This document shows, in pieces, positions 96 through 49,971 of a stretch of 49,971 nt of DNA (positions within the stretch are counted from its first letter, which is position 1; each line of letters begins with the position of its first letter). The notes beneath the pieces are model-generated. The model was given only the letters and a program-made list of their open reading frames with translations. It was not told where the DNA came from and made no database searches. The DNA lies in NCBI RefSeq assembly GCF_004116465.1, contig NZ_PDJV01000018.1, positions 1 through 49,971 of the forward strand, given 5' to 3'. The translations under genes and the position numbers were made by a program. Source of the DNA: Arcobacter sp. F2176. GTDB taxonomy: Bacteria > Campylobacterota > Campylobacteria > Campylobacterales > Arcobacteraceae.

Positions 96-165
96 ATATA
101 ACGATTGAAATGAGCCAATAAATTTCCCGCAGGGTCAAATATTTCTCTCCAATGATTTGTTATAT
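96..165 (-). other. attC-like recombination site (70 bp)
   Basis: Read on the minus strand the site begins with R'' ATATAAC (165-159) and ends with R' GTTATAT (102-96), the complementary outer boxes of integron attC sites. The internal part includes a CCC-GCA-GGG hairpin tip and the arm TCAAATATTTCTCTCCAA. Nucleotides 130-165 match 49844-49879 at 34 of 36 positions. Pairing of the two arms is imperfect here, which is common in attC sites. It separates two minus-strand genes (171-728 and 1-78). What is seen is the boxes and the shared arm; the attC assignment is inferred. Confidence 0.65.
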
Positions 166-741: not shown

Positions 742-871
742 ATATAATGTTTGAATTAAGTGGACGAGGGTATTGACCACTTGATTATTTGAACTACATT
801 CTAGCTTTTTTAGGCTTTAAAGCTTAAATTATCGCAAGTATACCCTCGTTCACTTCTAGGATTTGTTATAA
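742..871 (-). other. Long attC-like site (130 bp, VCR-like length)
   Basis: On the minus strand the site opens with TTATAAC (871-865) and closes with ATTATAT (748-742). The arms AAGTGGACGAGGGTAT (758-773) and ATACCCTCGTTCACTT (840-855) pair over 16 positions with one G-T wobble. About 66 nt of further partly palindromic sequence lies between them. The layout and length resemble the Vibrio cholerae VCR class of attC. The stop codon of the gene at 866-1282 lies inside the R'' box, as is usual for cassettes. The closing box has ATT where the exchanged GTT triplet is expected, so this copy may be inactive. Confidence 0.6.
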
Positions 872-1282: not shown

Positions 1283-1297
1283 TTTCTTTTCTCCAAA

Positions 1298-1381
1298 TTA
1301 TAACTATTTATTGAATATACATTATATAAATAAAGTACTTAAATTAACTTGTTTATTATATATTCATCTAAATAGTTTATT
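1298..1381 (-). other. Candidate attI/attC relic with AT-rich inverted repeat
   Basis: On the minus strand the segment starts AATAAAC (1381-1375) and ends GTTATAA (1304-1298). The adjoining arms AACTATTTA..GAATATA and TATATTC..TAAATAGTT (about 1302-1319 and 1357-1377) pair with a small bulge. This is where the attI site, or the last base of a previous cassette, should lie between the integrase remnant and the first cassette gene. The sequence is extremely AT-rich, so a chance palindrome or a weak terminator is also possible. From 1382 to 1558 I see only AT-rich DNA with no ORF. Confidence 0.35.
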
Positions 1382-1558
1382 TTAAGCATTTTTACAGATA
1401 AATATTACAAAATGAAATATTTTTTCTATGTATATTTATTATAGATTATAATTATGATGTTTATTTTATATTGATATTTAGAACTTTAATATACATAATG
1501 TATGTTAAAAGTGAAAAATTTAACTTTAAATAACATTTTTTATAATATAGGAGTTATT

Positions 1559-1618
1559 ATGGGTAAAAAACTGCTTGATATAATGAGGGATAAAATAAGA
1601 TTTAAGAATAAAAACTAA
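1559..1618 (+). pseudogene. Integron integrase (intI) 5' remnant, 19 codons
   Basis: A 19-codon frame starts at ATG 1559 behind a good GGAG ribosome binding site (5-nt spacing). It reads MGKKLLDIMRDKIRFKNKN and then TAA. From memory, the start of many environmental integron integrases has the pattern KLLDQVRDKIRLKHYS, so LLDxxRDKIRxK fits well. The match stops exactly where the dispersed repeat begins (1619). The reading direction is opposite to the cassette genes at 1-1282, the standard integron layout. With no Xer-type catalytic R-H-R-Y region left, it cannot be functional. The call rests on a short match. Confidence 0.55.
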
Positions 1619-1735
1619 TCTCTCTTGCGCCCTTTCAGGGTCACGCCTTGTTACTTTTTCCAGCGATAAAATAAGTAACCAAAAAATCTGTTTTCAATTG
1701 CTAACGCTAATGTTAGCTTTCATTTGTATTGTTAT
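1619..1735. repeat. Diverged copy/end of the dispersed hairpin repeat plus a short attC-like relic
   Basis: The stretch CTCTTGCGCCCTTTCAGGG.., then TTACTTTTTCC..AAAATAAGTAACC, is a diverged version of the repeat seen at 13091, 48501 and 48927. It shares the CTCTTG start, a small CCCT-TTC-AGGG hairpin and the TTACTTTT / AAGTAA arms. Behind it, 1699-1737 holds TGCTAAC (1699-1705), the palindrome GCTAAC-GCTAAT-GTTAGC (1700-1717) and GTTATAT (1731-1737). Those are the same two outer boxes as the attC-like site at 49811, but only 39 bp apart. No gene is visible here; the only frame is an 18-codon ORF at 1742 that I do not believe. Confidence 0.45.
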
Positions 1736-1843
1736 ATTATTATGAGATTAGGTGAAGTTTTCTATTTAAAAAAGTTAAAAGTTTTAGATAAGTATTAGAA
1801 ATCTGAATAAAGCTGTATATTTTAGCTTCAGACAAGGAAGAGA

Positions 1844-1902: not shown

Positions 1903-1936
1903 GCAGTATCAAGTTAAAAGATACTGCTTTATTTTA
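1903..1936 (+). terminator. Rho-independent-type terminator hairpin next to guaA 3' end
   Basis: GCAGTATC (1903-1910) and GATACTGC (1920-1927) form an 8-bp stem with a 9-nt loop, followed on the plus strand by TTTATTTTATT. It directly adjoins the guaA stop codon (1934). In the plus direction it would block transcripts coming from the old integrase side; on the minus strand the stem is present but the T-run is not. Confidence 0.5.
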
Positions 1937-3469
1937 TTCCCACTCAATTGTTGCTGGCGGCTTTGATGAAATATCATAAACCACTCTATTAATCCCATCA
2001 ACCTCATTGATAATTCTTCTACTTATTGTCTCTAAAATATCGTGTGGGATATGTGCAAAGGTTGCTGTCATACCATCTGTTGCTTCTACTATTCTTACAC
2101 AAACAGTGTTGTCATAAGTTCTGTTATCACCCATAACTCCTACTGATTTTACATTTAATAGTACTGTAAATGCTTGCCATGTTTTATCATAGTATCCAGT
2201 TGCTCTTAGAACATCTAGCATGATAACATCTGCTTGTCTAAGTAACTCTAAGTCTGGTTTATTTACATCTCCCATAATTCTAATAGCAAGTCCAGGTCCA
2301 GGGAAAGGGTGTCTTCCTATCATATCTTTTGGAATACCAAGTTCAAGTCCTAAAAGTCTTACTTCATCTTTGAAGATTTCTCTTAGTGGCTCTATTAAAT
2401 CAAATGTCATCCAATCTGGAAGTCCACCAACATTGTGGTGAGATTTGATAGTTTTTGAAGGACCTTTTACAGATACTGACTCAATAACATCTGTATAAAG
2501 TGTCCCTTGTGCTAAGAATTCTATACCATCATGTTTTTTTGCTTCTTCATCAAATACTTTGATAAATGTTTCACCGATGATTTTTCTTTTAGTTTCTGGG
2601 TCTGTTACACCTGCTAGTTTACTTAAGAATTGCTCGCTTGCATCAACTGTGATTAAAGGAACACCTCTTGCTTTAAACATAGCTTCTACTTGTTCTCTTT
2701 CATTTGCTCTTAAAAGTCCATTATCAACAAATACTGGGATCAATTGATCACCTATTGCTTCTGCTAAAAGAGTCGCAACTACAGAAGAATCAACTCCTCC
2801 TGATACACCACAAAGAACTTTTTTATCTCCAACTTGATCTTGGATTTTTTTGATTTGTTCTTTTGCAAAAGAACCCATGTTCCATGTGCTTTCACAACCA
2901 CAAATATATTTTGCAAAATTTTTAAGTAGTTTTGCACCCTCAACTGAGTGGTAAACTTCTGGGTGAAATTGAAAAGCATAAACTAATCTATCCAAATCAG
3001 CAATAGCTGCATAAGGAGAATTTTCACTTGTTGCGATTTTTTCAAATCCTTCAGGAATAGTTTCTACTCTATCACCATGGCTCATCCATACAGTTTGCCC
3101 ATCTGTAGTATCTCTAAAAATATCACTTTGTTTTTCAAAATTTAATTTTGCTTTTCCATATTCATGATGATCAGCTGGTATTACACTTCCACCAAAATAT
3201 TGAGAAATAAGTTGCATACCGTAACAAATACCTAAAATCGGTAATCCAAGCTCAAAAATTTTGCTATCTGGATGATATGAATCTTTTGCATAAACAGATG
3301 CTGGTCCACCACTTAAAATTATACCTTTTGGAGTTCTAGCCTTTATATCTTCTATACTTTCACTATATGGAACAATTTCAGAGTAAACTCCTGCTTCTCT
3401 TAGTTTTCTTGCTATGATTTGAGTATATTGACTACCAAAATCTAATACAACGATTGGTACATGTTTCAT
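1934..3469 (-). CDS. guaA: GMP synthase (glutamine-hydrolysing)
   Basis: GuaA converts XMP, ATP and glutamine to GMP in the cytosol, the last step of guanine nucleotide synthesis. The 511 residues have the full family layout. A class I glutamine amidotransferase domain comes first, with nucleophile Cys82 in GICYGMQ and the His169/Glu171 pair in FQFHPEV. The ATP pyrophosphatase domain carries the P-loop SGGVDSS (223-229). The C-terminal dimerisation domain ends in the typical PATIEWE. The start [17 protein letters not shown] matches the family. It stands alone, between integron debris and the small zinc-ribbon gene. Confidence 0.97.
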
Positions 3470-48264: not shown

Positions 48265-48444
48265 AGCTAAGTTTGCCTTTTGATAGTTAATCAGAAGAAA
48301 AATATTTTGGGAAATAAATATATTGAAGAATTAGACTTAAATGAGTTAAAAAAATGATGACTCTTTTTTGTCATAAAAAATTTATTAATGACTTCAAAAA
48401 AGCAAACTTATCAAAAACAATGGTAAAAAATATTTTGTATCATA

Positions 48445-48511
48445 AATTGGATTGGAAATATACTTTATGATAATTTATAATTGATAAAAATAATTTTTAT
48501 TCTCTTGAAGA
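48445..48511 (+). repeat. Right direct repeat (DR2)
   Basis: This is the second copy of the roughly 67-bp direct repeat described at 46999. It ends in the start of the hairpin GAAGAAC-AA-GTTCTTC (48507-48522). The stretch from 48265 to 48444 before it is AT-rich. It contains an inverted pair AAGTTTGC / GCAAACTT (48270-48277 and 48401-48408) and a 38-codon frame (48354-48470) running into DR2, which has no ribosome binding site and which I do not accept as a gene. Confidence 0.7.
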
Positions 48512-48890
48512 ACAAGTTCTTCGCTTTCTCACTTTTTAATTGTAAAAAGTAAGACAAAAAGCAACCAGACGAGTTGATGAAGGCAAAGCTACCCTACAGT
48601 TATATATTTATTTCCTGCCCTGCAAAACTCGCTAAAGAGTGCATTTAGCACTCTTCTTAACGCTCAAACAGTTTCGGGCGTTACCGAAAATAAACATCTA
48701 ATTTCCGGCTTCATCAAAGTCTGGAAAGAAGAAAAGTTCAAACTATAAGTTGTAAATTTACTAAATAGAAATTATAAGCCTAAACAAATCAAAAATGTAA
48801 ATGTCCTTATCCCCTCTTTTCCAACCCCTATAGAAGCTGAGCGTTTGTTTTATTTTTCGAAAAAGGCTTACAACTGTTTGAGCATAACAA
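48501..48890. repeat. Dispersed repeat element, incomplete copy (C1)
   Basis: The left end CTCTT-GAAGAAC-AA-GTTCTTC-GCTTTCTCAC.. corresponds to the left ends of copies A and C2. It contains GAGTGCATTTAGCACTC (about 48636-48652), matching in inverted form the GAGTGCTAAACGCACTC module of copy A. The segment 48781-48882 is about the same as 49261-49365 in copy C2. The expected right end with an inverted hairpin is missing, and copy C2 begins about 35 bp later. No gene is seen. Confidence 0.65.
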
Positions 48891-48924
48891 ATATCTTGTG
48901 GTATATGATATATACAAGTTTCTA

Positions 48925-49530
48925 CTCTCTTGAAGAGGTAAACCTCTTCGCTTCTCTTACTTTTACCTTTCAGGATTTACTCACTTCGTTCCAGCATGTA
49001 TTGACGAAAAGTAAGCAAAAGCAACTACGGCTCGGAGCCAAAGGTTCCCCTCACTTATTATTTTTATCTTTTCTGCTTGGCTTGTGCTTGCACTCTCTTT
49101 GAGAAAACTCGCTTATTAAAACAGTTGCCAATCTTGTTTAGAAAAGAGAAAAACAAACATTCGGCTCCTGCAGATGTAGGAAGAAATACCTTCGGTTGTA
49201 ACTTTATCTTAAAAGTTTAAACTCTCTGGTAATAATTAGAGAAAATAAAAGTAAAGAATCTAAACAAATCAAAAATGCAAATGTCCTTATCCCACCTTTT
49301 ATTCCAACATTTGCAAAAGCCGAATGTTTATTTCTCTTTTCGGAAAAGAGTTACAACTGTTTGAGTAAATAAATGTGCTAAATGCACATTTATTTATGAG
49401 TTTTGTAACTCAGGAAAGATAAATAATAAGTGAGGGAACCCAAAGGGCTTTGAAACTCTGTTGGTGGTTTTGCTTACTTTGTCCACACAAAGTAAGAGAA
49501 AGCGGAGACCTTTAGGTGTTTATGAGAAAA
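48925..49530. repeat. Dispersed repeat element, complete copy (C2)
   Basis: This roughly 605-bp non-coding element begins CTCTCTT-GAAGAGGT-AA-ACCTCTTC-GCTTCTCTTACTTTT and ends with the inverted, diverged form ..CACAAAGTAAGAGAAAGCGGAGACC-TTTA-GGTGTTTATGAG. Both ends also hold the inverted module TAAGCAAAA..AAAGGTTCCC(C)TCACTTATTATTT..ATCTTT (49011-49072 and about 49410-49480). The 85-codon frame at 48845 lies in these palindromes and is not a gene. The right end lies 20 bp from the stop of the next minus-strand gene, as copy A does with the PIN-like gene. Confidence 0.75.
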
Positions 49531-49550: not shown

Positions 49551-49793
49551 TTACCAGATTTTTGCCATTACCATTTTATTTTCATATTGTTTCCAACATG
49601 CTTTGATAAGAATATCCATCATTGTAGTACAATCATTTTGATCAATATCATAACATTCTACATAAAGTTGATTCTTTTGACATAAAATTTTGGGAGATTT
49701 TTCTATAATTGCATTTTTAAGATTTAAAATGTCGTTATTATCTTCGGCAAATAAAGATACTATTAATATGCAAAGAATAATTAGTCTTTTCAT
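49551..49793 (-). CDS. Small secreted protein, unknown function (cassette gene)
   Basis: This 80-residue protein has a signal peptide (MKRLIILCILIVSLFAE, cleavage near 16) and a short mature part with four cysteines (in ILCQKN, VECYD, NDCTT and KACWK) that could form two disulfides. No family is recognised. Its start is 18 nt after the attC-like site at 49811-49879, the position of a cassette gene, and its stop is TAA (49553-49551) within TGGTAAC, a possible degenerate R'' box. The sequence after it (49530-49550) leads directly into repeat C2, so this may be the truncated last cassette of an array that continues to the right. Confidence 0.7.
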   Translation of the reverse strand: MKRLIILCILIVSLFAEDNNDILNLKNAIIEKSPKILCQKNQLYVECYDIDQNDCTTMMDILIKACWKQYENKMVMAKIW

Positions 49794-49810
49794 TATTGTT
49801 TTCTTTTTTT

Positions 49811-49879
49811 AGCTAACGGTTGAGTTGAGAAATATTTGAGCCACAGGGTCAAATATTTCTCTCCAAAGTTTTGTTATAT
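49811..49879 (-). other. attC-like recombination site (69 bp)
   Basis: On the minus strand the site runs from R'' ATATAAC (49879-49873) to R' GTTAGCT (49817-49811). The inner arms GAGAAATATTTGA (49827-49839) and TCAAATATTTCTC (49849-49861) pair perfectly over 13 bp with a 9-nt tip. The outer arms (TTGAGTTG against CTCCAAA) pair with bulges, as extrahelical bases do in attC. The size, box order and location between two minus-strand genes all fit. Bases 49844-49879 match 130-165 at 34 of 36 positions. It is the best attC candidate in the window. Confidence 0.75.
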
Positions 49880-49971
49880 TTAATTAGTTGATAATCCATT
49901 TTTAATTTTTTGTGATAATACTTCTAAATATCCTGGCAATTTCTTTTTTTCAAAATATTGAGATGTTGAAC
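49880..49971 (-). CDS. Partial cassette gene, 3' end only
   Basis: An open frame enters the window from the right and ends with TAA at 49882-49880, directly against the R'' box of the attC-like site. The visible 29 residues are basic and helical (..YFEKKKLPGYLEVLSQKIKN..). There is no way to assign a family. The abutment of stop codon and attC is the typical structure of an integron cassette, so the array probably continues beyond the window. Confidence 0.6.
   Translation of the reverse strand, partial: STSQYFEKKKLPGYLEVLSQKIKNGLSTN

Follow-up and report, generated by a model that had tools for sequence, protein, structure and literature searches.

The stretch of DNA analysed here (the window, 49,971 nucleotides) is an entire contig, C18, which is exactly 49,971 bp long, and the two cassette clusters that it carries are the two ends of that contig (Table 1). 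The question therefore becomes what lies past each end, and not why there should be two clusters. At the right end, the attC site has the perfect 13-bp inner stem described in the first-pass annotation, formed by GAGAAATATTTGA (49827-49839) and TCAAATATTTCTC (49849-49861) around the 9-nt loop GCCACAGGG, and both outer boxes, TAAC/GTTA, flank this stem. Folded as DNA, the array-sense strand of the site reaches -12.1 kcal/mol (z -5.4), with none of 200 shuffles as good. Its score against an attC covariance model is 71 bits (E 4e-13), although this value is not independent, as the site is one of the 14 attC sites of this group that seeded the model; the fold is independent. Across the 3.27-Mb genome the model gave five strong matches, namely this site, two on contig C24, one on contig C15 and the left site of the window. 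The cassette-like genes reported on both sides of the right-end site are indeed there, and both lie on the minus strand, which gives the array a leftward reading direction. A Pfam search with the product of the last cassette gene gave no match, no attC was found behind this gene, and a dispersed repeat begins about 40 bp past its stop codon.

Table 1. Features at the two ends of the window
Feature	Position	Strand	Details
Terminal overlap with right end of C24	1-127	-	Exact; covers half an attC and the beginning of a lipoprotein-like cassette gene (MKIKILIKYLVVFIISLNFTGCILDT)
Chimeric, non-folding attC	99-162	-	Two attC types joined
Cassette gene, 185 aa	171-728	-	ORF, guaA-locus array
Long-type attC	745-868	-	94% identity to an attC of Arcobacter SZUA-449 (L106), guaA-locus array
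First cassette gene, 138 aa	866-1282	-	ORF, guaA-locus array
attI/leader region	1297-1558	-	Conserved TATAATGTAT and AATAAATAGTTAT
intI remnant	1559-1618	+	16 codons of integrase followed by 3 foreign ones and a stop codon
Repeat after truncated intI	1619-1769	.	Same place in G001 and G002; copy at C3:217521 (85%)
guaA (GMP synthase), housekeeping neighbour of left integron	1934-3469	-	GMP synthase gene
Dispersed repeats at array tail	48300-49530	.	Related to 13.09-13.64 kb
Last cassette gene, 80 aa	49554-49793	-	Signal-peptide-like start
Intact attC	49811-49879	-	Stem 49827-49839/49849-49861; recombining strand is the window minus strand in array sense
Preceding cassette gene, 3' end	49880-49971	-	ORF; gene cut by contig end, 29 aa visible

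The left cluster adjoins guaA and has a platform of its own. Its attI region aligns with ten other attI regions, and positions 1559-1606 encode MGKKLLDIMRDKIRFK, the start of IntI. As intI is cut after 16 codons, the locus has no functional integrase in cis, which makes it a relic platform rather than a complete integron. Synteny was examined with two congeners, G001 (complete, one contig) and G002. At guaA, G001 has the same dead platform with the same intI truncation point and with at least 13 short attC sites behind it, and G002 has a shorter intI remnant with the same repeat behind it. The shared truncation point suggests that the guaA integrase was cut before this species split from G001, and the left cluster, given its own attI and intI remnant and the same dead platform in G001, is a separate and older integron than the one at radA described below. 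The G001 locus, which has an attI and at least two attC sites and is integrase-less, is clearly a CALIN-type relic. The attC sites of the guaA locus within the window are one long site that folds well and has an altered R' core (ATT instead of GTT), and one chimeric site.

The cassettes of this locus differ between the two species. Neither of the two whole cassette genes at the left end of the window had a match in the G001 guaA array, so the cassettes appear to have been exchanged or lost after the death of the integrase; differential loss accounts for this turnover as well as another integrase acting in trans does. Pfam and PADLOC searches with the cassette genes of the window, these two included, gave no match. 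One cassette gene of the G001 array (L158:14099-15031, minus strand) matches the Lit phage-exclusion peptidase (PADLOC E 3e-29; Pfam Peptidase_U49). Contig C10, which synteny places to the left of the guaA locus, ends in an insertion-sequence-like end and shows no cassette link.

An intact integrase had been expected nearby, and a profile search of the contigs located the sole intact integron integrase of the genome on C24, at radA, where intI overlaps the start of radA. The gene is full-length, being free of stops and scoring 400 bits with TIGR02249 against a cut-off of 265, and its product aligns with V. cholerae IntI4 (2A3V) over residues 1-307 (E 3e-80), the integron-specific insert included. 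On C24 a conserved attI-like region lies upstream of intI, as it does in relatives, and from there the contig runs through two complete cassettes and breaks off inside a third, of which the start is present. In the congeners the right part of the window adjoins radA (up to 47.1 kb in G001 and 46.4 kb in G002), and just small ORFs and a dispersed repeat, of the type found at 48300-49530, lie between the block and radA. Accordingly, the radA integron should span the interval from C24 to the window's right end, and the right cluster (49551-49971) is most likely the tail of its array, an assignment based on gene order. The stretch between C24 and the right end is absent from the assembly, the adjacency resting on synteny with these two relatives. 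No overlap joins the right end to any of the contig ends examined, and an attC model search of the contigs for the missing middle of the array found no other array contig. Three co-oriented, folding attC sites can thus be assigned to the radA locus, two on C24 and the one at the right end of the window.

Several further observations concern the radA locus. An 83% identical copy of the first C24 cassette gene lies beside the integrase of a Sulfurimonas metagenome integron (L043:8646-9713, minus strand), which indicates that cassettes pass between genera. Palindrome-like motifs such as TTACAWWTTGTAA were seen by eye ahead of intI, in C24 and relatives, and also ahead of radA, in G001 and in another genome, L041; they possibly form a shared operator. 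The radA leader of G001 and G002 reads LNKNNIKSP in the integrase frame and was considered as a relic of an integrase tail; it may instead be the native radA leader, given that a similar leader occurs in L041, 1.5 kb from that genome's own intI.

The two ends of the window are thus ends of two different integron arrays of one Arcobacter-type chromosome. The explanation that we regard as very probably correct is that two integron loci lie 48 kb apart in the same orientation, a complete one at radA, with the right cluster as its far end, and an older, dead one at guaA, and that the attC arm common to both clusters is shared as an attC type of the group. The radA locus would be a complete sedentary chromosomal integron with intact IntI, attI and cassettes, in which, by analogy with the known family, IntI would capture a cassette by cutting the folded single strand of attC and joining attC to attI. 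The guaA locus (1-1618) would be the older platform: it has an attI of its own, its intI was probably cut before the split from G001, and its cassettes would since have been exchanged or lost; the IntI of the radA locus may act on its sites in trans. The earlier suggestion that one integrase seeded both loci is therefore partly retained, in that only the radA-locus integrase is intact, and partly not, in that the guaA locus had an integrase of its own, now truncated. What counts against the two-locus explanation is a competing link for C24, which shares a 127-bp overlap with the left end of the window.

This link coincides with an unusual attC site. One half of the site at 99-162 is of type A and is identical at 36 of 36 positions to attC sites in G001 and in a further genome (L096), while the other half is identical at 28 of 28 positions to the second attC of C24. 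The site does not fold (-3.3 kcal/mol, z +0.46). From the switch of attC type onward, the left end of the window equals the end of C24 for exactly 127 bp, such that C24 and the window both lead into a common sequence, and the assembly lacks what follows it. An overlap of exactly 127 bp also exists between contigs C11 and C21, and this number points to the overlap length of the assembler. The link is either a true exchange between the two arrays or an assembly or library chimera.

The chances are about even that a library or assembly chimera produced the hybrid attC and its connection to C24, with the true left array continuing otherwise. The site has no fold, and IntI, which cuts attC in the R' box, would make no hybrid in the middle of an attC. 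The type switch also falls on the border of an overlap whose length recurs in C11 and C21, and attC sites that resemble one another are known to interrupt draft assemblies (PMC9024848). However, any shared stretch of at least 127 bp, real or not, would end contigs in the same manner, and the alternative continuation was found on no contig in searches by sequence and by attC model. Alternatively, the chimeric site could be real, the product of an IntI-independent exchange within the attC hairpin between two co-oriented arrays of one chromosome, although we consider this unlikely. As the two arrays share one orientation, the left junction is what would be expected if the 48-kb guaA-radA segment had been duplicated in tandem or excised as a circle, in which case core genes could be amplified by paired integrons. 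The picture at this junction would be identical if one cassette had been copied into both arrays, or if the join were a library or assembly chimera.

It is very unlikely that both clusters are stray cassettes put off-target by an integrase located elsewhere. Insertion at secondary sites is a proposed origin of CALIN (PMC8618304), and a lone attC without a platform does exist in this genome (C15:17707-17769), but the left cluster has an attI and the remains of intI, and the right cluster sits where the radA integron must end. A single platform-less attC was likewise observed in G002 (C5:284838-284901, L160); the C15 region (L118) and this one align between the two species.

The first-pass annotation had pointed out the resemblance of the two ends. 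The 36-nt arms are indeed nearly identical, 49844-49879 matching 130-165 at 34 of 36 positions, but the site to which the left arm belongs is the chimeric one described above. With up to four mismatches allowed, ten copies of the arm are spread over seven other loci, among them loci in Sulfurimonas and Sulfurospirillum metagenome assemblies, and Arcobacter arrays commonly contain whole attC sites of its type; within a taxon, the attC sites of sedentary integrons generally resemble each other (PMC8352920). The match would thus reflect a group-wide attC type common to other genera, not one former array, and arm identity was discarded as proof of kinship. A second proposal, that both clusters border copies of the same dispersed repeat and that this repeat offers a route for rearrangement, did not hold up: the bordering repeats share about 70% identity over about 55 bp and are not the same repeat. 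When the congeners were checked for a displaced or inverted block, window positions 1.9-47.1 kb proved collinear with G001 2,044,239-2,100,107 and with G002, local insertions aside. It is hardly credible, then, that a single array was divided when the 48-kb block inserted or was rearranged, a reading that could draw on the matching arms, the cassettes at both ends and the common direction of the arrays, since the block has the same place and orientation in both congeners, each cluster has its own platform, that on the left starting at its own attI and intI remnant, and the arm is of a widespread type.

Other platforms were seen in the genome and in the family. Two regions, C11:87393-87626 (L120) and C34:5433-5657 (L121), are of attI type, without an intact integrase and with one cassette-like gene after each. 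The C11 region is 82% identical to the attI region of C24, and its attC seems to have been cut by an insertion-sequence end; the C34 region is decayed. In all, the genome holds sedentary chromosomal integrons of ordinary type, with one complete platform and at least three decayed ones. Beside guaB (IMP dehydrogenase), integrase fragments occur in G002 (C6:38759-41499, L159) and G001 (1401001-1402240, L161), consisting of a truncated integrase or just the last 49 codons. Several genomes from a different genus of the family have an intI next to guaA; the gene lies beside radA in L042 and L189 and near radA in L041, and guaA, guaB and radA are three recurrent integron homes in the Arcobacteraceae group. 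Integrase matches were found in 25 of 104 Arcobacteraceae genomes. In two Arcobacter assemblies (L087 and L106) intI is frame-shifted, from which integrase loss seems frequent in the family.

The openly licensed literature that was searched holds nothing on Arcobacter integrons as such, but close parallels exist elsewhere. Like the sedentary chromosomal integrons of Vibrio and Xanthomonas, the integrons described here combine a full-length IntI carrying the integron-specific region, an attI-like region, co-oriented cassettes with similar attC sites and a fixed chromosomal home, here radA, guaA or guaB as opposed to the ilvD of Xanthomonas integrons (PMC12444791). They differ in their short, 62-64-nt Campylobacterota attC types and in having two loci 48 kb apart in one genome; more than one integrase is found in 22% of integrase-bearing genomes (PMC9024848). 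Arrays are known to outlive their integrase, and as in Xanthomonas integrons with an inactivated intI, the attI and array at guaA outlast it and the loss is common to related lineages (PMC12444791). Unlike in those integrons, no cassette gene of the window was matched in the sister species' array, whose integrase died at the same point, and there is a complete integron just 48 kb away. Taken alone, the right cluster would be classed as a CALIN, a group of attC sites lacking an integrase, at a contig border, like the draft-genome CALIN of IntegronFinder 2.0, where arrays are split between contigs (PMC9024848), but its integrase exists, on the neighbouring contig by synteny.

The window thus shows a known kind of element, well resolved apart from one chimeric junction, and a puzzling long-distance match resolves into two known elements. 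It illustrates how a draft assembly can make the tail of an array look like a stray cluster, and it documents recurrent integron homes in the Arcobacteraceae. A natural test of how cassettes turn over is available here too, in that the integrase of the guaA array was probably dead before two species diverged and a live integrase lies close by in one of them.
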